Shown here one piece after another: positions 1,281-49,961 of a DNA stretch of 64,000 bases. Within the stretch, counting starts at the first letter, position 1; every line of letters begins with the position of its first letter. The stretch spans positions 4,718,501-4,782,500 of the forward strand of contig CM065879.1 of assembly GCA_033439255.1 (NCBI GenBank). Reading direction: 5' to 3'. A program made the translations under genes and the position numbers. The stretch comes from Hericium rajendrae (Eukaryota; Basidiomycota; Agaricomycetes; Russulales; Hericiaceae). The notes below the pieces were generated by a model. That model made no database searches, was not told the origin of the DNA, and saw nothing but the letters and a program-made list of their open reading frames with translations.

Positions 1281-1452
1281 CAGATAGTTCTAAATTGATA
1301 GGTGGAAACAAATATAGGTCTGTGCCCATCATCTGCTGCTACACCGCGATTGACCGAAGAGTTGCTATACTAGCACTGTGGGCCGGCAGCCAACGTGGCA
1401 GGACCCTCTAGTTGCACATTTCGCCAGCTATTGGCACGATGCAATCCTACCG

Positions 1453-3231
1453 ATGGACTCTCGCTCTCCATTAGAAGAAGCGCGGCGAGACATGGACAGC
1501 GATCTAGATGCGTTGGCTGCACTGTACGAATCATTTCGGTCCCAGCGCAACCGTCTTTGCTTGCCAAATCGACTCCCCCCTGAGATCCTGTCACGCATCT
1601 TCATATTGACCTCAGCGACTCCGATACAGCCGCCTTTCGGACTGGAGATTCTGGAGACAAAGTTGTTCACCGATTCCGATTTGCCATCTTTGGACCACCC
1701 ATTCTCTTTCACGCTCGTCTGCCGCCATTGGCGAGATGTTGCTCTACACAGCCCGGCGCTCTGGGCAGATATCACACCTCAATTCAGCTTAAAATGGTGC
1801 AGGGAAATGTTATCTCGTGCACGATCGGCGCGCCTGCTGGTCGCAAGAATATTGGATCCCGATAATGTCCTAGATCTGTCGGAACACGTTCCTCGACTTC
1901 AGCACCTGGCATTAATGAGCTATAGTCTCGATGCCATGCAGCTGGCGATAGCACAATCCATCCAAATGCCAGCCCTCTCCTTGAAGTCACTGTTGCTCGT
2001 TTATGAAGAGCCAGATAAAGACAGCGATACCTACTATAACACACCCGATTCGGCATATATTCTCCCTCCGGACTTGTTCGGCAGCGATTGCCCTGTGCTT
2101 GAGCGAGTCTCACTAAGCGGGACGATGCTGCCATGGACGTCTTCATTATGGGGCAGCCGCATCACCCATGTAGAAATAATACAGGAACGCCACCTCGCTG
2201 CTTTCCGTCCCGCCTTTCGGCCCACCATCGAGCAGTTCCTCCAATGGCTGGAAAGTATGCCGGCACTAGAGTTACTCAAGCTCGGGACTTGTCTCCCGCG
2301 TATCACGCAGGATCCACAGCCGCTTGACAATCTTCCTACAATCATCTTCCCTTACCTTCGTGTCCTTTCTATAGACGACAGGTTCTCCAGCTGCGCATAT
2401 GTGCTGGATCATTTGCACCTTCCTTCCCTCGCCGAGATGAAAAATTTTCTGGTATCCGATTGGCCTTTCATCGAACTTACATCCTGTTATGATGTCATCG
2501 CATCTGCTTTGACCAGACACATTCGCTGTCTTCTTGCCGATCAGCCGATTTCAAAGGTTCAAATATCAGAAGCCTTCGCTCTTTCCGGGATGAGGGCCTG
2601 GTGCCAGAGCGGTAGCGAAGTGGGTACCAACAATGGCCCAGAGTTAGACAGGCCTTTGCCTGTTTTCGACTTATTCCTCGAGCCCTTCAATGCAAATGAT
2701 CGTTCTACACAGGGTCTGTGGCACCTGTTCCGTATTTTGCCTTTGCACGAACTCGAAGAGCTCAAGATACAGTTCCTCTACCCGAACCCCAACCCAAATG
2801 AGTTGCGATCCCCATGGCTTGACATCCTTGGCCAATGTAGTCGAATCCATCGCTTGGTTCTTACCCTTTGCTGGGGTGACCCTTCATTACCTATAGTGCT
2901 GGGCGCGTTGGCTACAGAAATTGACCATCGAGATTCTGTGCGGACGACGGCAGGAGCTCCTCGGCTGTGTCTCCCCAACCTACAGGAATTGGTTATAGAT
3001 GCTAGGCATTTCAGTCGCTCTGAGTCCGGGATAAGTCTCAAAGACCTCATCGACCTGCTAATCTCAAAGTTGTCAATTCGCCGAAGACTTGGAGCCCATA
3101 TGATCACACTTCGCCTTGAAGTCCCTCAGCCGGACACCAGTCATCTACCCCTCGATGTCCTAAAAGATCTATCTGCAGACAGGATTGTGTCTGTAGTAGA
3201 TCTCGGACCAAACGCAGACGCATGGCGTTAA
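1453..3231 (+). CDS. F-box-like domain protein
   Basis: Single-exon gene of about 592 residues. The frame is open from 1378, but the first ATG is at 1453 (MDSRSPLEEARRDMDSDLDA), preceded by no other in-frame ATG. A short coiled N-terminus leads into an F-box-like motif (LPNRLPPEILSRIF, then FTLVCRHWRDVALHSPALW), followed by leucine-rich sequence with irregular LRR-like spacing. This is the standard mushroom F-box architecture. Such proteins usually serve as substrate receptors of SCF ubiquitin ligases through Skp1; the target is unknown. It lies on the plus strand between two minus-strand MYND paralogues and is not part of their duplication. No frameshift was seen. Confidence 0.85.
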   Translation: MDSRSPLEEARRDMDSDLDALAALYESFRSQRNRLCLPNRLPPEILSRIFILTSATPIQPPFGLEILETKLFTDSDLPSLDHPFSFTLVCRHWRDVALHSPALWADITPQFSLKWCREMLSRARSARLLVARILDPDNVLDLSEHVPRLQHLALMSYSLDAMQLAIAQSIQMPALSLKSLLLVYEEPDKDSDTYYNTPDSAYILPPDLFGSDCPVLERVSLSGTMLPWTSSLWGSRITHVEIIQERHLAAFRPAFRPTIEQFLQWLESMPALELLKLGTCLPRITQDPQPLDNLPTIIFPYLRVLSIDDRFSSCAYVLDHLHLPSLAEMKNFLVSDWPFIELTSCYDVIASALTRHIRCLLADQPISKVQISEAFALSGMRAWCQSGSEVGTNNGPELDRPLPVFDLFLEPFNANDRSTQGLWHLFRILPLHELEELKIQFLYPNPNPNELRSPWLDILGQCSRIHRLVLTLCWGDPSLPIVLGALATEIDHRDSVRTTAGAPRLCLPNLQELVIDARHFSRSESGISLKDLIDLLISKLSIRRRLGAHMITLRLEVPQPDTSHLPLDVLKDLSADRIVSVVDLGPNADAWR

Positions 3232-33865: not shown

Positions 33866-36800
33866 TTACACTCCGAAGTCTACGAGTTCCTTCTTCGCCA
33901 TCTCCAGTGTCTTCTGGCGCGCGCTGATGATCTCACGCTGATGCGCCGCGGATGGATCATCCGCCAGGTACCGGAAAAGCGCTCCTGCGCGTCTGCCGAA
34001 CTCGGCGCCAGCCTTTCCACAAGGAACGCATGCAAGTCCTCCGCAACCCTAGCACGGAAACAATGAGACAAACGGCCGTCCATAAATACAAGCAGACTCA
34101 CGGTCTGACCAACAATGTATCAATAAGAATCGGAATGTTGTCGCGTTGCCTCTGAAGGACAGTCAGCACACGAAACAAGGATAGTTGGGAAGGAGCGCAC
34201 GGTGTATACGACGTCGAAGAACGTCCTGACCTGCGCCATCACCCGCATCTCGGTCTCGTATTCGTCAGGCTTGCGCAGCTTTCCGAGGTCCTCCTCCGTC
34301 AGGCCCTCGAAGCCCGCCTGCTCCAGCATCGCCAGCGCCTGCTGAACCGCCTCAGGCTTCATCTGCTGCGCCGGCGACTGTGGCGCACTTGGCGGCGTCG
34401 GCTGCGGGGCAGCGGCGGTTTTAGCCTTGGCTGGGGCCGAGTCGCTCTGAGGAGATTTCTTGATGCCGAATGTAAATGCTGAGATCGGCGGGTCAGCTGC
34501 GGTAATGGGCGTCGCCGTTCCAGGGCTTGGGGCAGTTGAACTGAAATTGAAGGGGTTACGCGGCGACGCTTCTTTAGCGCGCGCGTCCTTGTACCGGGCG
34601 AACCACTTTGCTTCGCGCGAGCGCATGAAAGGCTCGCCCTGCGTGTATGGATGGCGCTCGCCTTTCAGAAGGATAACCTCGATGGCCTTCTGACAGCTGG
34701 CGAAGTGCTTTTGAATAAGGTCGAGTGTCCATTGCCTGTACGTGCGATATTGATGAGCGGACGAGAAGCCTCGTAAAAGGAGACTTACCGAAGCTGTGCA
34801 TGCATTGCTGGCCATGGGCCGAACCGTTTCTCAACGCAGCTGAGCACGTAACGCGTGGTGATGTCCCGAACGGCCGTAGCGCAGCACTCGGCGATGGTAG
34901 GCCAATCATCTTGGAACTGCTTAATGAGCTTGACCTTTGCGCGGAAGGGCACGTTATCCACGAGTTCCCTTGTGATAGATCTGTCATCGCGTGAGTCGTG
35001 CACGTATACTCAGGGAGTGAATACGTACTTGAAGATCTTGTCTTTCATATCATCGAGATAAACAGCCTCGACTGCAGGTTTCACATGGTCAACAGGGTCG
35101 TCCTCGTCGCGGGTATCTTCAAGGAAATTTTTGAATTCGTTCGAATGCGCATTGATCCTCAGAAAGGGCCTGAACTCGGGCATCGTAGCATGTAAGGCCT
35201 TCTTGAACTCGACGAATTGTGCGTTATTGTCTTGGACAAGGCCTTCAGAGCCTATACCTCCTTCGACAAATGAATTCACGTCCTCCTTCAACTGCACGAG
35301 AAGACTGATGAACGAGTTCGTTCAGTGAGAATGTACAAGTCGTTGAGGGCGCAAAGACAGCTTACACATGAGAAGCATACTCCACGGGATTGGGTATTTC
35401 GGCAGGAAGCCTTGCGAGGTCTGCTTCGCATTGCATTAGAAGCCTTTGTCGTCTGCTCGCTAAGAGCAGGCAATCTTCGAGACCATCTTTAGCATTATGA
35501 TCTAGAATGGGACTTGAACGGATACGCACGACTCCCGGATGGCTTTTTCGAGCAGCGGGCTCAGCATGTCGACCAGATTCTTGTTTCCAAAGCGGTGCTT
35601 CTGCGTCGACGATAACCACGGCTCCGTGGTTGAGAAGTATCGCATCTCAGCCTCGCGAGCTTTTTCGGGAGTTACACCGCCCTCCCGCTCGTCGTCATCA
35701 GGCTGGCGTGTGCAGTAATAGCCATGGAGCAGGGGCTTCGCGCGGCCTTCAAGGACGTCGAGCCAGATCCCGCGTGACTTGGATCCTTTGCTAACGACAT
35801 CAGGTTTTGTCAAGACACCTAATTATTCGGTGAAGATGCATCAGGAAGTTTGTGTTGATCGGAGGTTTCATGGCGACGTACATATAGTCCTTTTGCCCTC
35901 AGGATCGGCCTGTCGTGCCAGCGTAAGGGCCTTCTGATTGTCGATATCATCTTAGATGAGAGGACAATCAATCGTAGACCACAACATCATTGAAAAGATA
36001 ATCCATACCAGTCATAGGAATGGTGACCAAAATCAGCGAGTTGCCCTTGATACGCTCGACGACAAGATTCTCAACAAGCTTCACAAGCTCCGGTTTATCC
36101 GCGACCTGAATGAGCCCTATCGCAATTTATTATCAGCTTTACGATGCCGCATGCGAGCCCGTGAAAGTACGAAGTCTTACCAGGAAGATCGACGAACGAT
36201 AGATCAACGAGATCGGGACCTTCGATCTGTACGCAGACAACGTTGCGCGAGAAGGACAACTTCGGCTTGTCCGGCTTAATGGAGAGTCTTAATTGGTCAA
36301 CGGACATGTCCAAGAAGTTCCGCGGCTCTATCCAGGGCTGCAGCACCGCTGCCGCTGCCGCACGCAGACGATGCTCAACATCGTCGGGATTGGTAATGGG
36401 ATCGCCGAACTGCTCCACCTTGACTTCTGACTGTAGCAGCATGAGCGATAGATCTCGTCATCACGGTTCCAACGCACCTTCCGTTTGCCATCCAGCCTAT
36501 ATTCCGATCGGATGGAGACGCGGCATGTCCAAGGCCCAATTGACGATGACAACTGTATCTCGAAGGGGCTGCGCGTGCACGTCCCGCTGTCTCGAGGTAC
36601 TTTGATCTGAAAGAGACTGCTAAGTCACGGCACATCTCCAGAAGAAAAAGCAGCGCTCACGCCTGATATCGCCTCGACGACACTACTCTTTCCTATGAGA
36701 AATGCGTCCGTCAGATTTTGACAAGACACAGGCGCTTATTTTAAAATATTATTTACGTACCAGCCGATTGGTTGCCGATAGCAACGACAGACGGGATGTC

Positions 36801-38560: not shown

Positions 38561-38940
38561 CGTGGTTGAGGCGTCAGTTCTTGGACCGTACCGCCTCTAA
38601 ATGTCCACAAATGATGTCGATGCTCTTGAAGCCGAGCGATACCGAATAGTGAACGGAAAGGCGTGCTTATAGTATTAAAACAACATTTCCAAAGCGACAG
38701 AGCAACTGACACGACATGGGACTATCATGGCATAGCGTTCGACATAAAATTATAGAAAAGGCAATGCCACGGTGTTGATGACAGTACGAGTAGATGAATC
38801 GAAAGAAAGAAAACATATACAGACGTGAACAAAATGTAAGAAACAAACGAAACATGTTCCGATGAAATCCATGACCCCACCTTACCCTACACACCAACAC
38901 CTTATATCAGCGCACACACCCACGTCTCCCAGCCGCGACA

Positions 38941-40083
38941 CTACAGCCGCTTGAGCGCCTTTTTCCGCTTCTGCCCGTCCGCCGCCGCGGCACCGCCGGT
39001 CCCCGCGGTCCGCTTGACCGCCTTGCTCGCCGGCGGCAGGCGCAGCGCCGAGCGCGACGTTCGAGTCGGCGGTGCCGAGCGGCGCGGGCGACGAGAGGCG
39101 CTCCTTGTTCCCGTCCTTCGAGTTCTCGGAGCTGAGCGCGGGCGACGCGTTGTTCGACGGCGAGCGGTGCAGCGGCTGCGCGGGCGACGTCGGGACGCTC
39201 GTTTTGTGCGCGAGGAGCGGCGCGGAGGCGGAGGTCGCGAGGCTCGTGGCGGAGAGGGAGGACGTGGACGCGAGGGGCGCGGGCGGGTCTGTGGGCGCGC
39301 TTGTTGCTGCTGCTGCGGGCGTCGCGAATTCGGGTGGGGGACCTGCGGACGGACGGAACATGAGGAACGTGGTGCGGGTGAGGGGGCGTGTATGTACCTT
39401 TGGTGTCGCGTGCACGCTCGTGACCATGCGTGCGCGCTCGCAATATGAGTTCCAGTCCTCCTGCACGAGGCGGCCGGCTTCCTCATCGAGCGCGGAGTCC
39501 GGATTCGGGTAGATGAGGAGGCACTTGACCGTGACGAGGATGTGGCCAATGCCATATGACGGATTCCAGTCTTTCTTGAGCGTGGACACGCAAATCTCGC
39601 CCTGGGGCGACACATTTGGATGGAAGATTTTGGTGATGAACCAGCCTGCGTGAGAGGGGCGTGAGCACGCGCAGCGCGACACGCAAACGACACGTACACT
39701 TCGGTGGCGCGGCGGGGAACTCCTCTGTGAACTTGAACTTGACTTTGAAGTAGCCACCGGCGTAGGGCGTGCCCTCTGCGATTCCAAAGCAAAACACGCG
39801 CCCAGTCAGCCGCCCGTCCACACGCGTATTCGACCAAATTTGCCCCTGCGAGCAAGACGCGTCCAGAAAGATGCTGACCTGGGCCCTCGATAATTCCTGT
39901 CACGTCGAGCATGTTGTCTTCGTTCGTGACGACGCGCACGCCCTCAGGGGGATTAGACCTAAGCTCCGCGAGTTCGCGCATGACCCGGCGAACAACAGTC
40001 GGTGCAACGCTCTATAAGCAGATATTCCGGGAGATAAGCATGCGGGTAACACCCCAGATCATATAATCGCGAGAACTGACCAT
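38941..40083 (-). CDS. UBE2S-like ubiquitin-conjugating enzyme E2
   Basis: The E2 fold is spread over several exons: [77 protein letters not shown] (active-site Cys in GEICV), [20 protein letters not shown] and [20 protein letters not shown]. This order and the NPDSALNEEAGRL-type signature match UBE2S/E2-EPF, which extends K11-linked chains on APC/C substrates. Splicing of the last 55-nt intron leads to a frame ending [11 protein letters not shown]; the basic tail ending in RL resembles the UBE2S tail that docks on APC/C. The start ATG seems to stand alone in exon 1 (40083), joined to SVAPTVVRR. The linker is open in two frames (see findings). Confidence 0.85.
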
Positions 40084-41234: not shown

Positions 41235-44200
41235 ATGCCCACCTCCACCTCCACCACCGTCCCCATCCGCATGCCTGAGCAGCCCACGCAACTAGCTACC
41301 AGCAAGTATGCGCAGAGCCGCAAAGCCCTTATTCAACTCGCGCAGAAACTTGTAGGTATTGGGTGCGTCTATGAATGCGTTTTCCTCTAAATACATTTAC
41401 TGATTATGTCCGGTACTCAACTGGATAGTGCTCAGGCAGTCATAGATATACCCCGTATCCTCGTCCTCGGTGCTCAATCTGCAGGTTTGTGGGAACGCGT
41501 CCTCTAGATGGCTAATTTATTGACATTTTTTTTTACCACCGTCAAGGGAAGAGTAGTGTCGTCGAAGCAGTATCTGGAGTAAGTGTCGTATTCTGTGGCA
41601 ACGTCTCTGGCAACGTACTTCAGCGTTAACTCCACACATATCGACAGGTTAATGTACCACGCGATGCCGGGACATGCACGAGATGTCCTATGGAATGCCG
41701 AATGGCGTCCTCAGACAAGTCGTGGTCCTGCCAGATTTCAATTCGTTGGGAATACGAAGCAGATCACAAGAAAAAGGCACCTCATCCCCTCTCCGTCTCC
41801 GAGTAGAATGCTGACTTTCGGGCGTAGCGAGACGTCACCGAAGTGCCGTTCGGCGATCTTATCACGGACCCGAGCACAGTCGAGCTTATGCTGCGCCGCG
41901 CTCAAGCTGCAGTCCTGAATCCTCATGTAGCATCACATGAGTTTTTGAGCATGAGTGTGGAGCAGCTCAAAAGGGGCATCAATTCGAGTGTGAAGCCTTT
42001 GGCCTTCTCAAAGAATGTCGTGTGCATGGATCTTCAGGGACCGGACCTCGTGGATCTCTCATTCATTGACCTTCCTGGCATGTCATTTGGTTCGGTTTCT
42101 CGGTTATTGTTTCTCATCTCTTCGATTGCAGGTCTCATTCAGGTAGCCGATGATCCTACCCTGCCACAACTTGTCGAGCAGCTTGTTGTGGATCATATCA
42201 AGGGGAACTCCCTCATCTTGGTCACAGTGCCTATGACAGGTATGTTATTGAGTTCTTTCAATGCGACGCCTTCTCACGATTAGTGCTCCAGACGATTTGG
42301 ATAATCAGCGTGCTCTGACACTCGCAAGGCAAGCAGACCCAGAGGGCAAGCGAACAATAGGTACTTTCTTTCGCTCCATCTATTGTACTCGTCGCAAACA
42401 ACTCGGACAGGTGTGATCACGAAGGCTGACGTCGTCGGCGCGGGCTCGAAATCCCGCAACCTCTACCTCGATGTCATTGAAGGACGCAGCAAGAGCCTGC
42501 TCCATGGCTACTACTGCACCGTATCTCCAGATGACAAGGACAGGGAGAAGGGCGTTACACACGCCCAGGCTCGCCAGGCCGAGGCCAATTATTTCGAGAC
42601 GACCGAGCCGTGGTCGACGTCTCGCGGAAGAACCATTTCGGGATCAAGAACTTGCTGGCGACTCTAAGTCCGTTGCTTGAAAGGGTTATCAGGGATCGGT
42701 GCGTCATCTATCTTTATATCTATCGACCTTCGACAAATGAAGTTTGATTTGGAACATTGCAGATTGCCCACACTTCGCGAGCAAACGACAAAGCATCTTA
42801 AAGAGTGTGAAACAGAACTGTCGGGTATGGCGGAGGAGATCACTGGGGAACCTGGGGCCTATACACTGGGGTAAGCCGCGCGTTTGATGCCTATATTGCC
42901 CTGCCATTGATGATTTGTCCAGTCTTGTTTCCTCGTTCTGTAAAGACATCGCACAGTACGTTGAGGGCACTCGCGCGCATGAGGCGCTCATCCAGTCGCA
43001 CCGCGAAGCCTATACCAAGTTCAGAACCGCGATCCGTACAACGGCGCCCGACTTTAGGCCATATTGCCGGAGTGAAAAGAACACCAGCTGGGGCAAAGGC
43101 GACGAAAGTGAGGACGACGATGACGATTCAACGTTCTTCGCAGGATCGACCAGCAAAGCGGTGTATCTAGACGACATGAAAAAACACATAGACAGGTGGC
43201 ATCGTTTCTCTATGTGTTGGCTCGCTTTCTAACAGGCGGTTCGTAGCTCGAGAACACGGGAGCTGCCGAACGATGTGCCCTTTACGGCGAAAGTGAAGCT
43301 GATTGGCAAATTTCAGGAGACTTGGAAGACGGCAGCAGAAACCTGCTTCGATGAAATTTGCCAAGGAATGCTCAAAACCTGCTTGAAAGTGTCAAAAATC
43401 ATTCATTCGATCGGTGGGACCAGCTGTATGCCCAAGTCCGGTCAGTCGCGTATCGGTCACCTATTTCAGAATGTCTAACTTATCTGCTGTTCGCCTGAAG
43501 GGCTTGCATCCACCATCTAGTCGAACAGCATCAACAGCGTTGTCAGCTTTTCATCGATGCTGCCCTGCAGGCTGAGGGCACACCTTTTACGCAGAATGAA
43601 CATTACCTGAGCTCATGCAATGATAAATGGCTCGCGAAGTACAAAGACAGTCGTGCGCAGGGCACGAGCTCCAATCAATGGCCCAATGGAACATTTTCCT
43701 TTTCGCATCCCCAGGGGTCAAGCACAAAGTCTCCACAAAAAGGGTCTGCACCGCCACCTCGCAGTTCGACGGAGAACTATGTAGCTGAGGCTCTATCGTA
43801 TCTTGCCAAAATCGGGTACGAGGGCCTGGTTGCGGAAGATCTGGGCAGATTGCGGAAGCCTGACGAATATGAGACAGAGCTGCAAGTCATGGCAGAGGTC
43901 CGAGCTACTTTCAGGTTTCGTATAAGGTACGTTGCTGCCTTATATTGCCACTGTTCTACATGCTGAAATTTATACACTAGCGCATCATTGACTATGTGCC
44001 AATGTTCATCGATCTGATATTCGTCAAAGGGTGAGTATTGTTGCAAAATCTTGTGATTCTCGATAGGTGCTGATGCGTGGTTTACAACGTTTTCAGAATC
44101 ATGGAAGATCTAGAGTCCTTCCTTATCAATAAGTTAGGTCTTGTCGGCCCAGGCGCGCCAGAACGCTGCGCCAGATACCTCGCAGAAGATCCAGATGTCG

Positions 44201-44286
44201 CTGCCCAGCGCGAAGAGGTCGTTGGACGGAAGAAGACACTGGAAAGCGTCAAGAAAGAGCTGGATAGTTTTGGGATGTCATTGTAG
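41235..44286 (+). CDS. Dynamin/Mx-like large GTPase 3 (two apparent frameshifts, one GC-AG intron)
   Basis: Start at ATG 41235 (MPTSTSTTVPIRMPEQPTQL). Motifs: G1 LGAQSAGKSSVVEAVSG across an intron; VPRDAGTCTRCPMECRM; G3 VDLSFIDLPG; a G4-type GVITKADVVGAGSKSRNLYL, where Ala replaces Pro of the paralogues' TKPD. Stalk: HFGIKNLLATLSPLLERVIR; GED: RYLAEDPDVAAQREEVVGRK ... KKELDSFGMSL, stop at 44286. The intron at 41777-41827 has a GC donor (AAG then GCACCT) and is supported by the KRDVTEVPFG join, which matches dynamin 1 (KRDVVEIPFG). The frame slips near 42618 (before RKNHFGIKNLL) and near 43908 (before YFQVSYK). The GTPase family is clear; whether this copy is functional is not. Confidence 0.83.
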
Positions 44287-44484
44287 ATTGTCGCATGATA
44301 TGTTGTTACGATCCTTCCAGGGCTGGCAGCTCACATACAGTTATGTATGTTCTGATATGTATGGTCTGATACTGTACTATAGTCGTGATGTAGATTGTTT
44401 TAAAAAATACATGAAAGCGACGGGGTAAAGGAATAAGAAACCACAAACAATGAGGCAAGATAGTATCATTTGTCATACAGGGTT

Positions 44485-46769
44485 CTATGCAAACTGAAGC
44501 CGAAGATTACTTATGTCCGTAGATATCTGTGAGAACGAAGGTCGGTAGGACGCGTCGTGGTTCCAGCATGCATCCAAAATACTTCGCAGCCTGGTATCGC
44601 TAGCAAGGCTGCTCGATGATAGCGGCGGACGTCCATGCTCTACTGTAGCTGGGTTCAACATAGGGACTTCAAGCAAGAAAGACAAGCAATTACCTAGTAC
44701 TTTATGTCGAACGGCCGCATCGTCCAGGAGAGGCCACGGCAAAGACCCTTTGGTCAGCATCTCGGCGCAGGTAATGGCAAATGCGTAAACATCGATTTGT
44801 TGGGTCATGGCGTCAGCCCCGTTCAGGAGCTCCGGAGCCTGCCATCTCAAGGTTCCACCTGTCCGAGAGTCAATTGTCAAAAGTCGCTGTGAAGATGGAT
44901 ATTGACGCACGCGATACTGGCATCCGGGACAGACGGTAGACTTCGGACTTGAGCTCGCTTTGGCCGAAGTCCGTGATGACGCAGCGGAAGATGTCATCAA
45001 CAAGAACGTTGACCGCCTGGGATATGAGAGCATTAGCTTTCAGACAAGGTTCAAGGAAACCGAAGAACGAACCTTCAGATCTCCATGAAGGATCTCACGC
45101 TCATGCAAATAAGTCATACCGGATGCAATCTCATGAATCATTTGCAGTGCGACGTCATTTTCAGAGCTGGCAAACTTTTGAGATACTTGACTAAATTTCC
45201 ATTCTTGTAGTACGGGCTGACGAAAAACCATGGAGGATCACTCGACGTCGAGGATGCCCCGAGCAGCTGCAGGATATTCGGATGCGACAGCCTTTTCCAC
45301 AGATCAGCCTCATGGAACGAAGAGTTCCCGAGGCGTTGCATCTGCCAACATCTTGATCGCAACCGTCCGGTTTCGCCAGGTGCCCTTGTACACGTTGCTG
45401 AAGAAACCGACTCCGATTCTCTGGTCAACGTCGATTTCATACCGCGTGATTGTCCAGTTGGGCAGATTGGGTTGATCACCTTGTTGGAGCGTGAGCCGTC
45501 GAAGAGACTCGATACCGTTCTCCATGAATCGACGATCAAGGTCGACTTCTTGGTGTCTCGGACGAGCAATGCCTATTCTTCCGAGTAGCGACGTTCGTTT
45601 CCGGGTATTCCTGGATTCTCTGCCTCCAGTCTGATCATGCTCGACAACGTAGTCATTCAAAGTACGCTCGAGGGCTTGCATTGCCTCTGGCATCTCGTCT
45701 CGTCCAACTTGCAGAATCTCCACCATCGCGACGTCATCGTTTGCCTGGACGGCTGCACGGAGAAGCTGCCGAAGCTCAGCTAGGTCTTGATTCCTGTCCT
45801 TTCTTGTTCTGTTCCATGCGAATCTCCTCAAGATTCTCCTGAATCTAATGGGCTCAGTTGTCAGATCGAGGTAGATAAACGTAAACGTGGTACGTACTTT
45901 GTGCTTGGACGTGAGCGAGTGCCTCCGTAAGCTGAGGAACGCAGATGAGTTGTGCTGAATGAGTTTCAGGGTTCGAATTTGAATGGAGAGCTACGAAGCA
46001 TCCTTGGATGAGGACAGATAACACATTGAGGATTCAAATTTGCTCACCCCGAACATCCCGAGGGCCTCAGAGAGGGACTTGTCGCATTGTGTAATGTCCC
46101 CAAGCACTTTTTCTCGTCCGAGGAACCGCTTGAGAAAAGGCATATCCATCTGCTTCCGCAGAAAAACAAGAACCTCGGTGAAAGATCTACGGATAGTCAG
46201 CTCTGAGCCAATTAGAGGCGAAAGATGAACGTCTGCCTACTCGTGCAGTTTATCGATCGGCGCTTTCAGTTCCTCGGTCACGGCTAATCCGGCGCTGACA
46301 GCTTCCTCGCGAACGGAAGTCAGAATGCTCGCGCAGCGCTCAGTCAACCGTAAACACGAAGACCGATTGGACTGAGCATGACCAGCAGTATGGTAAGAGA
46401 TTCAAACGTCGTAACACATTCCAATGGCTCACCTGCACTTTCTCGAATGCGCTCCATATTTCCAGAAGAATGTGACCTGCAGGGGCGAGGCCGGGAATGG
46501 GCGCAAAATCCAGGAGGTCAACGCCGACGGTGAGGCCTCATGGGTGATCTCCACTGCCGTTCCTAATACAGATGCAGCGGCACGCGTGACGCGCTATACT
46601 TTACAATCAGGGAGGACGGATGCGAGATCTTTAGTCCTAGACGCACCTTACGTGCGTCCGTAATCCGGGCAACCTGCTCCTCCGACAAGCCTCGCTCGCT
46701 TCGTGAAGCGCCGGATCGCGATTCATGACGGCGTACGTTGAAAGTACTCCACCACGTCACCACCGACAT
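44485..46769 (-). CDS. TKL protein kinase with N-terminal helical domain
   Basis: Candidate start at ATG 46769 (MSVVTWWSTFNVRR). After EEQVARITDA comes a helical domain: LTVGVDLLDFAPIPGLAPAG, HILLEIWSAFEKVQ, LRLTERCASILTSVREEAVS, VLVFLRKQMDMPFLKRFL, ALGMFGLSIQIRTLKLIQ. This block is typical of the N-terminus of basidiomycete TKL kinases and resembles NLR/MLKL-type helical bundles. The kinase domain has the glycine loop IGVGFFSNVYKGTW, the lysine VAIKML, LWKRLSHPNILQLLGAS, HGDLKAVNVLVDD, DFG (ITDFGQSEL) and GTLRWQAPELLNGADAMTQQ, so it looks catalytically complete. It ends STDISNLRLQFA at 44485. Its neighbours upstream on the same strand are PAH and WD40 coding regions, which may belong to the same transcript. 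Confidence 0.82.
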
Positions 46770-46938
46770 CCTGTCCTCCCCGCCAGAGCCGGAAGCACTC
46801 ACATCGCGAGTGAAGAATGAGCCTCGCGTTCCAGGCGACACGCGAGCCGAAGATGGCTGGGAAATTCTGCCAGAGCTCTCGTCATTCCCGGCAATCCAAG
46901 GAAAGAGACTTGGTGTTGTTCGGGAATGGGTGTTCTGT

Positions 46939-47612
46939 TCAGAGCGGGGAAGGCATCGATTCGATCGAACTGAATGGCAAACTATCGGTCGGTAGCGGCG
47001 GTATGACGGGCTGTGGCATGGCATGGGCGATTAAAGGTGTCGGCATCGACGAGGAGCCTGCTTCAGCATCAGAAAGATGTCCAGATCGAGCGACAGCACC
47101 AGTCTGCGGTGTTGTCATCGTCACCTCGCCAGAGTTGGGGTCGACATCGACACGGAAACCATCTGGCAAAAGTGCGTTCAAGCCAAGGATGATATCAGTG
47201 TGACCGACAAAGAGGCTTGATGCTGTGGCCATGAAATTCGTGACGTCAGGGCTAGCAAAGGTTAAACCGTTAAATATTGAAAAAAAAGCACAGAAGCGGG
47301 CAAAACTCACATTCGACGGGGTTTGTAGTTCTTTACAGAGTGCAGAAAAGCCTCGTACACGTAACGTTGGTCTGCAAATTCAGACCGTACGTTATCAAGG
47401 TAGCTTAGCACGGTATCCATTTCCAATGCAGGCGGTGAAAACTCCGGGGTGTCTGCGACAGCTGGCGGTGGCGTCGCGAATCGCGATACTTTCTCTACAT
47501 CTACCTTCGCAGCTGCGGGCTGTGGATGAGGGGAACGGACAGGAGGAGTCCGTGAACGTTCAGTTTCGGGGTACGGGCCAAATAGTGAAAACGATAAGGG
47601 CGGATTCGACAC
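46939..47612 (-). CDS. Sin3-type PAH domain protein (possibly part of a larger gene)
   Basis: Two exons. The first is proline-rich (RTPPVRSPHPQPAAAKVD) and then begins a paired amphipathic helix: LSYLDNVRSEFADQRYVYEA, FLHSVKNYKP. The intron at about 47324-47264 joins it to RRIPDVTNFMATASSLFVGH, TDIILGLNALLPDGFRVDVD. The pattern YxxFLxxxxxYK ... LFxxHxDLIxGxNxxLPxG is that of Sin3 PAH repeats, which bind short helices of transcription factors. The nominal end is ESMPSPL at 46939, but an alternative splice from NSGE to FAIQFDRIDAFPALNRTPIP is also open and ends at a strong GTGAGT donor near 46812. The nominal start MSNPPLSF reads a GTG codon, so no firm ATG is known. Confidence 0.6.
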
Positions 47613-47689
47613 CTGAGTTAGTGGAAACAGACGGCTGTGGTTGCGGAATAGAAGAAAAGATCATTGTTTCGTGAGGGTGTCTAGTTCAA

Positions 47690-49961
47690 AAGGCTGTGAC
47701 GGCAAAGGAGGAAAGGGATAGGGGGAAGACGACAGAGAAGGAACGATAGAATCGACCTCAGAACCTTGGGTATCATCCAGTGTTTCGGCAGTGTCCTCGC
47801 CGGCGTATTCTTCATCGGGCCTTGATACACCTTCTTCAGGAATTTCCTCGATGGCAGCAGCATCAGAATTAGGCGAAGTTAGACTTTAAACGTTCCATAT
47901 CGTCATAGTTTGCGCGTTCGTTCCGCACGCTACGGTCTCGCCATCTGGACACCAATCGACACAAGTGAGAGAACGTAGGGACTGCTTGCTGACACCTTTA
48001 TAGGGGACAGGCGTTCCGACGAGTACGCCTCTCTTCGTGTCCCAGAAACGCAGTGTTTCATCAGTTGAACAAGATACCAGCAGGTTCCCACTCGGTGCGA
48101 AGCTGAACGATTGAATGGTGCTAGTATGGCCACTCAGCACGACGATAGCTGTGCCCGCCTTATAGTCCCAGAGCCGAATGGTGTAGTCCTCTGCGGAAGT
48201 CGCAAGGATAACACCCCCAGGTGAAAACTTGACTGCCCGCACCTCTTTGGTATGACCCCGGAGAGACTGACTGACGACCTTGGTTTTGATATCCCAAATC
48301 AGCACTACTGGATCGTCCGATCCAGTAGCAGCGAGGCCATCGGGAGATATGTCAAGTGCGTTCACGGGATTGCGGTGTTGCTTGAATGGTTCACCAACTT
48401 CTTCGCCGGTTCTGATGTCCCATATACGCACTGTTTCGTCCTCGGATGCGGACCCTAGCAATGCGCCGTCTCTTGAGAACGCGACGCCACGGACTGTGTG
48501 CTCGTGTCCCCACAGGGGCGCGCCGATGGCTTTGCCTGTAGCGGGATCCGACAAAATGATGACTGTAGAACCCGAAGCGAGAACCTTTCCGTCAGGAGAA
48601 AAGGCGAGACATTTCACGGCTTTCTTGTGACCATTAACCGTGATGAACTTGGGCTGGTTTGCAGCGGACGGGGTGTCGCTCATGTCCCAGATGTATATCT
48701 CGTGGTCAAGGGTTGCAGTCGCCAGCAATGTACCGTCAGGTGAATAGCGCGCGGCGCTGAGCCAGCTGTGATGAGGAAGACTAGCCTGGAGGAACACAGA
48801 ATTTGTGACCTGCTCGTTATTTCCTTGAAGAAACTTCACTGGCGAATCCATGTCGCCGAACCGTATGGCCGACTCCGCACGCTCAGCCAAGGTCCGCCGC
48901 GATTTGGATGGTGCAAAAAAGTCAACTGCGGGCGAAAGGGTGTCGAGGGCGATGAGGTCTATACGCATGCGGAAGAAGGCGATAAGGACACTGGATCCTG
49001 CCACGAACCACCTGCCGTCTGGCGATACACCCAGACCACCACTCCAAGTCCGAAACCTTGCATCTGCCACAGTGGTTCCAAGAGATGTTTTCTGGTCAAC
49101 GTTCCAGATGCGCAAGGTCTCGTCATAGCCTGCAGACAAAAGCACGGAGCCTTTCAGAAGGAAAGCAAGGGAAATGACTCCAGATTTGTGGCCTTCAAAA
49201 ACAGCGATAGGGTCGCCTGAAAGGCAATCCCAGATATGCACTGTGCAGTCCTGACCCGCGGAGGCCACCCTAGTCCCATTCGGGCTAAACTTCACTACCG
49301 ACGCCTCGCCTTCGTGCCGACCCGCGAGTTGCATCAGGACATTATGATCGTGCGTGCGCCAGATGAGAACGGACCCCTTCGACGAGCCAGATGCAAACAT
49401 GGAGCCGTCCGGCGCAAAGTCGACAGCAGTAAACTTTGCATCGTTGCTGCCCTCCCGGTCGTTCCAGGTGAGACTTGCGGTCAAGCGGTAGTTGTAGGCA
49501 TCCCAAAGTCCAATATTGGGGGTGCCGCACGCGCAAAGGAAGGTTTTCCCATCCGGTGAGAAGACGATATCGCCGACCGCGCCCCACTGTTCTAACGGTT
49601 GTACGAGATTTGCGCCGGTGCTAAGATCCCACAGGCGGACATGCTTATCTCGGGAGCCGGAAGCGAGTGTGCGCGAATCGGGGGAGAATGATAGGCAGAG
49701 TACCCAGTCGGTGTGGCCTTGCAGGTCCATGATCATCGAACCGGACGCTGCGTTCCATATCCGGATTGTCGTGTCATTTGATGCAGTTGCCAGCAGTCCA
49801 CCATTTGGCGAGACCTTCACAGATCGGATAGACGAGCGATGGCCCGTTACTATGGGCTCTCGAGTTGACGAAGCTAGATGCATGGTTCAAGTCCTGATGA
49901 GCATGTTTTGTTGAATCCGCTCACCTGCTGGCTCGTCGGTGAGTTCGAAGCCGTTACTCAT
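47690..49961 (-). CDS. WD40 repeat protein, 14 repeats (two propellers)
   Basis: The first exon gives MSNGFELTDEPA from ATG 49961; a 51-nt intron ends at catctag and joins to SSTREPIVTGHRSSIRSV. Then an unbroken exon encodes about 14 WD40 repeats: six or seven in the first block (for example GHTDWVLCLSFSPDSRTLAS), a linker of about 60 residues around PSKSRRTLAERAESAIRFGD, and seven in the second (GHEHTVRGVAFSRDGALLGS, GHTKEVRAVKFSPGGVILAT). The last repeat ends TIWNV with a stop at 47886. If the GT of that codon serves as a donor, the frame continues into an acidic tail (EIPEEGVSRPDEEYAGEDTA ... FELDTLTKQ) to about 47690. Two seven-bladed propellers would form a scaffold or ligand sensor. There is no NACHT or other N-terminal domain. 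Confidence 0.85.

Follow-up and report, generated by a model that had tools for sequence, protein, structure and literature searches.

Do a WD40 array, a paired amphipathic helix (PAH) domain and a tyrosine kinase-like (TKL) kinase that follow one another almost without spacing belong to a single gene, and is that gene still working? The question is raised by a locus of the basidiomycete Hericium rajendrae (assembly GCA_033439255.1), located within a stretch of 64,000 nucleotides (nt) of contig CM065879.1 (positions 4,718,501-4,782,500, forward strand). We refer to this whole stretch as the window, and locus coordinates are window positions. Homology, family and NACHT/WD40 searches covered this one genome, and gene models were built from sequence alone. 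The locus is probably the remnant of one NACHT-less receptor-kinase gene resembling the NOD-like receptors (NLRs), now a pseudogene in which only the WD40 part is open. A preliminary description had proposed either one very large sensor-scaffold-kinase gene or a tight set of signalling genes. The first proposal finds support as the origin of the locus, in the coding signal behind the first stop, in a nearby tail exon and in a related gene model on contig 10, but not as a present working gene, given two stops and five frame changes.

All parts lie on the minus strand in the order WD40 array (49961-47886), acidic/proline linker, PAH, MLKL_N-like helical domain and TKL kinase, which ends at 44485. 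Our searches agree with the preliminary description on the presence of a WD40 array, a Sin3-type PAH and a TKL-type kinase with a helical N-terminus, as well as on their colinear order, common strand and close packing. The WD40 open reading frame (ORF) has 666 codons (49886-47886) and matches the Pfam WD40 model in 12 stretches (E 1.7e-106). By eye we counted 14 blades, that is two propellers, in line with the double propeller described earlier. Two starts are possible: Met 49883, for a protein of 665 amino acids (aa), and Met 49961, which requires an in-phase intron of 51 nt (49924-49874, GTGAGC...TAG) and gives 674 aa. A fold prediction of the ORF without alignment was poor (mean predicted local distance difference test score 37.3) and was not used. 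The double propeller is the sole part of the locus that is open as sequenced, and its stop, TAA (47888-47886), comes right behind the complete last blade.

The WD40 frame also holds the linker and the first PAH exon. Directly behind the TAA lies the first part of the linker (47664-47885), closed by a TGA (47663-47661) 222 nt further on; the second linker (47421-47660) then reaches the PAH, and no Met occurs in this frame over the 465 nt between TAA and PAH. The earlier statement that the linker frame continues toward the PAH is therefore correct as to frame, but the continuation is broken by both stops. We calculated a codon score trained on 24 open frames of at least 400 codons from the fetched loci, together with the models of two related genes, C9a and C10, described below. 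The first linker part (the 222 nt after the TAA) scores 0.146 in the WD40 frame versus -0.15 and -0.27 in the other two. Of 13,912 open stretches taken from the rest of the window, which overlap one another, not one attains this value, nor does any of 35 same-frame stretches behind the stops of other ORFs of at least 300 codons. Because the linker is coding, start-less and in the frame of the gene just ahead, it appears to be a former continuation of the WD40 gene.

Introns offer a limited way around the stops. All five introns listed as able to splice out the TAA use the donor GTTTAA, with scores of -3 to 3, and were rejected. Five listed introns would remove the TGA (donor GTGTAT, scores 5 to 7, 318-378 nt) and with it most of the linker; we do not favour them. 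For comparison, the kinase gene's conserved introns have scores of 6 to 11 and lengths of about 45-61 nt. Judged by these candidates, splicing might dispose of the TGA by itself, but hardly of the TAA.

Protein searches of the genome identified five loci that combine the helical domain with the kinase: the window locus, C9a and C9b on contig 9, C2b on contig 2 and C10 on contig 10. C9a (minus strand, about 2426.5-2429.6 kb) gives an open 810-aa model from a Met of its open frame, with a coiled coil in front. It forms a divergent pair with C9b (plus strand, about 2437-2441.4 kb), about 8 kb away, whose kinase carries an interruption of about 1.08 kb; an 11-nt perfect inverted repeat lies close to the borders. 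C2b (minus strand, about 4847.7-4850.5 kb), which is located approximately 20 kb from the contig end, also shows frame changes in its kinase part. As modelled, three of the five family members are broken, and the C9a and C10 models need no frame breaks. A short match to the start of the helical domain was also seen at C2:4641586-4641696 on the minus strand (46% over 37 aa, E 0.0018).

The C10 gene (contig 10, within 404500-412500) provides a related unbroken architecture. Its 1103-aa model, starting at 407231 and reaching a stop, contains WD40 (7 Pfam stretches), a tail, an MLKL_N-like helical domain and a TKL pseudokinase, without a PAH. The WD40 exon is joined to the helical exon by the sole in-frame candidate intron (57 nt, phase 0, donor GTGAGC). 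Both unbroken relatives match the kinase model PF07714 strongly (C9a, E 1.6e-51; C10, E 8.2e-48). The C10 kinase lacks the catalytic Lys, the loop Asp and the DFG Asp (VAVT, HGN, GFG) and is the only pseudokinase of the family; the window locus, C9a, C9b and C2b keep HGDLK and DFG.

These data bear on an alternative with two genes, in which a complete stand-alone WD40 gene would end at the TAA and a separate PAH-helical-TKL gene, now a pseudogene, would lie behind it, the linker being part of a lost first exon of this second gene. Two genes would account for an open WD40 ORF that stops right behind a complete last blade, for the Met just before the PAH and for the lack of a WD40 match in front of C9a, C9b and C2b in the genome WD40 comparison, in which 67 of 173 candidates were scored. 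They are harder to reconcile with the coding signal of the linker, which lies in the WD40 frame and has no Met, with the scarce room for a 3' end, a promoter and a 5' end, and with the WD40-helical-TKL fusion modelled on contig 10. We regard this alternative as rather unlikely. The coding signal after the TAA, the absence of an in-frame ATG before the PAH, the tail exon near the PAH frame and the C10 model lead us to infer a single-gene origin.

Could the neighbours have met by accident? WD40 stands ahead of the helical-kinase part in two of the five family loci. We counted by hand about 46 WD40 places in the genome, a lower bound in view of the 67 of 173 candidates scored, and the chance of a same-strand WD40 array within 1.3 kb is roughly 6e-4 per locus. 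On these figures, coincidence is an unlikely source of the WD40 arrays upstream of two family members, even if the count is several-fold too low. One could also suppose that rearrangement or transposition in a fast-changing chromosome end assembled remnants of unrelated domains by chance, and point to the position of C2b near a contig end with its frame changes, and to the insertion in C9b. Such a chance assembly is hardly credible in the face of the same-strand order, the common frame, the conserved tail and introns, and the contig 10 fusion.

The PAH is encoded by two exons. Exon 1 (47311-47420) starts at a Met and is followed by a 59-nt intron (47252-47310, GTGAGT...TAG), the sole candidate listed; exon 2, with a tail containing no known domain (46942-47251), ends at a TGA (46941-46939). 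The preliminary description saw no firm ATG for the PAH part, and indeed the linker has no Met, but a Met codon stands right at the PAH start (EMDTV, 47420). The spliced piece matches the Pfam PAH model with 22.7 bits (cut-off 21.3), and the first half alone gave no Pfam match at E 1 or better. Because the intron splits the domain, the genome-wide family search did not list the window PAH. Multi-PAH loci, which we take for Sin3-like, sit on contigs 1 and 9; the first PAH of the contig 9 locus is 35% identical over query residues 41-130. At the window locus there is a single PAH, and no further Sin3 part was seen there, the Sin3 core not having been searched for.

Between the PAH frame and the kinase gene lies an unexplained frame change (46872-46941), for which the two listed GT-AG candidates score -1 and -2. 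It is followed by the N-terminal tail exon of the kinase gene (46647-46871, WWSTFNVRR...ARITDARK). Residues 213-252 of C9a match 46766-46647 of this exon (37.5% over 40 aa), which puts the start of the homology 173 nt beyond the point where the PAH frame ends. The intron that follows the tail has an identical place and phase in the best-scoring models of all five loci. A strong GTGAGT donor had been noted just before the kinase N-terminus. Such a donor is present at 46802 (and at 47310, where it serves the PAH intron), but the donor consistent with the paralogs for joining tail and helical domain is GTGCGT at 46646.

The MLKL_N-like helical domain, spread over several exons, and a short exon occupy 45839-46593 (exons 46593-46433, 46371-46241, 46186-46048 and 45990-45898), with a frame change at about 46.54 kb. 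The next exon (45073-45838) encodes the helical connector and the kinase N-lobe up to HGDLK and has frame changes at about 45.80, 45.32 and 45.17 kb. The C-lobe exons (45016-44911, with DFG; 44858-44694; and about 44639-44485) end with a TAG. All four kinase pieces match PF07714 (E 0.002 to 3.1e-08), three of them above the cut-off. The kinase keeps VAIK, HGDLK and DFG, which we take to supply the catalytic Lys, the catalytic-loop Asp and the DFG Asp. The kinase domain is not contained in a whole open frame, owing to the three frame changes in exon 45838-45073, and one more falls in the helical domain. Introns were considered as the cause of these four frame changes inside conserved exons and rejected as too short, three sites having no GT-AG pair of at least 20 nt and the fourth one of just 20 nt.

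In total, two in-frame stops and five frame changes have no convincing intron. There are no breaks in the 1998-nt WD40 ORF and five to seven in the 2893 nt behind it, a distribution that mildly favours the WD40 part being still kept. Over 402 codons shared with C9a, the window kinase gene shows 73% amino acid identity, with a nonsynonymous divergence pN of 0.16 (dN 0.18) and a synonymous divergence pS of 0.76 (dS saturated). These values indicate that the kinase gene was long under purifying selection, and we infer that breakage came late.

Three separate working genes, tightly packed, would find a possible Met ahead of each part (49883 or 49961 for WD40, 47420 for the PAH and 46768 for the kinase), yet the kinase frame is broken inside conserved exons, the linker is coding without a Met, and little intergenic space is left. 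We consider this arrangement very improbable, and for the kinase the suggestion of a tight signalling set of separate working genes finds no support.

One working gene, whose stops and frame changes are assembly or sequencing errors, would fit the retained VAIK, HGDLK and DFG motifs, the strong past purifying selection and the fully open WD40 ORF. Against it, two stops and five frame changes fall within about 2.9 kb of coding sequence versus none in the 2.0-kb WD40 ORF, the C9a and C10 models have no breaks, and stops are absent from 20 of the 21 NACHT matches of this assembly. The longest homopolymer runs at the four kinase-gene breaks are 3, 3, 3 and 4 nt, none exceeding 4 nt, so that plain run-length errors are not an obvious cause. 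We judge such errors to be an improbable explanation of the breaks, and treat the locus as a pseudogene in what follows.

The helical domain had been described as an NLR/MLKL-like N-terminus. A helical domain is there, but its resemblance to MLKL_N stays below the Pfam cut-off. The MLKL_N profile matches three of the five family members (best E 0.00022), the window locus not necessarily being among the three; C9a scores 19.5 bits against a curated cut-off of 27, and C10 likewise remains below it. Two small pieces of the window helical domain had no Pfam match at E 1 or better, and a profile of the five members gave no credible match in the PDB (best E 0.23). A genome search with the MLKL_N model recovered none of the five family loci; it gave just two weak matches at other sites, the better one with E 0.0266. 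This better match, which is sub-threshold, lies at C2:4791263-4791412 on the minus strand, approximately 9 kb past the window end; the longest ORF in C2:4789763-4792912 has 199 aa.

Where does the sensor come from? Scoring of 67 out of 173 candidates gave, next to the window itself, ten best WD40 matches from seven loci, and all of these sit behind NACHT matches. A genome NACHT search gave 21 matches, whose positions we compared with the WD40 matches by eye: 20 of the 21, all except C2:1985776, are followed by same-strand WD40 matches. Because its best relatives all sit behind NACHT matches, the window WD40 array is, by sequence affinity, a sensor of NLR type at a locus without NACHT. With its 12 Pfam WD40 stretches the locus has the repeat sensor of a fungal NLR (WD40, ANK or TPR). 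The central NACHT of this type of receptor (STAND) was not found at the locus, none of the 21 genome matches being near the window; NB-ARC was not searched.

Several observations weigh against a single-gene origin. The loci used to train the codon score were picked for WD40, NLR/NACHT, PAH and kinase matches, and overlapping loci were partly counted twice, so that the training set may favour WD40-like codon use. Outside the first linker part the score is low: 0.036 in the second linker (reached by 6.6% of the window's open stretches), 0.028 in PAH exon 2 (matched or exceeded by 7.9%), 0.026 upstream of Met 46768 (12.6%) and -0.06 in the kinase tail (42.7%). The 318-nt intron over the TGA scores 7, a value that also falls among those of the kinase gene's conserved introns. 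Breaks cluster behind the TAA with only mild significance (0.07 to 0.025 for 5 to 7 breaks, if evenly spread). A genome search with the PAH part found, beside itself, one match, the multi-PAH Sin3-like locus on contig 9; since the PAH has no other relative in the genome, the evidence for the WD40-PAH and PAH-kinase joints consists of frame and coding signal only. In the C10 model, the intron 408896-408950 has a poor acceptor, though at a conserved place. Finally, the C10 WD40 is not the closest relative of the window WD40 among the candidates scored, and the WD40-kinase joints of the two genes may therefore have arisen independently.

Taking the single-gene origin as the probable one, the ancestral gene would have encoded a two-propeller NLR-type WD40 sensor, an acidic linker, a PAH derived from Sin3 PAH1, the conserved tail, an MLKL_N-like helical domain and a TKL kinase. 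The WD40 part, perhaps together with the PAH, could have restrained the helical-kinase part and served to bind a self or non-self ligand. By analogy with HeLo/MLKL-like proteins controlled by NLRs, ligand binding would free signalling or cell death. The gene would since have been broken: translation halts at the TAA once the last blade is complete, and further on lie the TGA and five frame changes. What could still be made is then no more than a WD40 protein on its own, 665 or 674 residues long.

A helical-kinase part of this kind is known already; what is unusual is the WD40 front and, even more, the PAH. More tentatively, mushroom-type fungi may possess receptors that lack a NACHT and couple a WD40 sensor of the NLR type straight to an MLKL-like helical domain with a TKL kinase or pseudokinase behind it. 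The C10 gene would then be a living member, and the window gene one that had captured a Sin3 PAH1 as an integrated bait or docking pocket. Such a receptor would be a one-piece sensor and executioner bypassing the NACHT switch, its pseudokinase version mirroring MLKL with a built-in sensor, and it would link fungal NLR sensors directly to necroptosis-like executioners. Breakage and swapping of N-termini within the family would be in keeping with recognition genes that evolve by birth and death. Since the window gene is apparently dead, its value would lie in being a fossil of the architecture.

We also searched Pfam with ten further open frames of the window (nine of the 23 frames of at least 190 aa, plus 43499-43966), and two of the ten, a ubiquitin-conjugating enzyme and a frame with an F-box-like match, had matches at E 0.01 or better. 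The ubiquitin-conjugating enzyme is encoded at 38882-39805 on the minus strand (PF00179, E 1.6e-18). Pieces of a Dynamin-like GTPase (41828-44290, plus strand) lie tail-to-tail with the kinase, with Dynamin_N (E 0.013) and Dynamin_M (E 0.0012) both below the cut-off; a second relative of its C-terminal part, 35% identical, is found at 34120-34830 on the minus strand. The F-box-like match, in a 625-aa open frame at 1354-3231 (plus strand), is sub-threshold (21.5 bits, cut-off 24.3).

How does the locus compare with known systems? In the open-licence literature, a search for WD40, paired amphipathic helix, protein kinase and basidiomycete found no paper, and no title or passage retrieved there contained the order WD40-PAH-helical-TKL. 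The PAH, with about 20 residues behind it, aligns with SIN3 chains of the PDB at their first PAH (E 6.9e-15); in contrast to Sin3, only one PAH is seen here, adjacent or fused to WD40 and kinase. According to passages of the respective papers, TKL kinases are expanded in Laccaria bicolor (PMC2838846), and fungal FslK kinases mostly have no further domains (16 of 241 have any; PMC3937382). The family described here shares with them a PF07714-type kinase fold and multiple copies; the passages of these papers name no WD40 or PAH partner. With NACHT-WD40 fungal NLRs, such as HNWD/HET-E and their basidiomycete relatives (in the passages of PMC4986451 and PMC12881547), the locus shares a WD40 array of the same pool. 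It differs from them in having no NACHT match (in searches that did not include NB-ARC) and in placing WD40 first and the effector last, the reverse of the NLR order. MLKL and the basidiomycete BaMLKL, with its MLKL_NTD-like domain (as portrayed in passages of PMC9815663), resemble the family in having an MLKL_N-like helical domain followed by a kinase fold, a resemblance that stays sub-threshold here. The helical domain of MLKL stands at a free N-terminus, whereas here it lies inside the protein, preceded by WD40, PAH, coiled coil or other sequence. MLKL ends in a pseudokinase, unlike the window gene, C9a, C9b and C2b with their HGDLK and DFG motifs, and in this respect C10 is its counterpart in the family.

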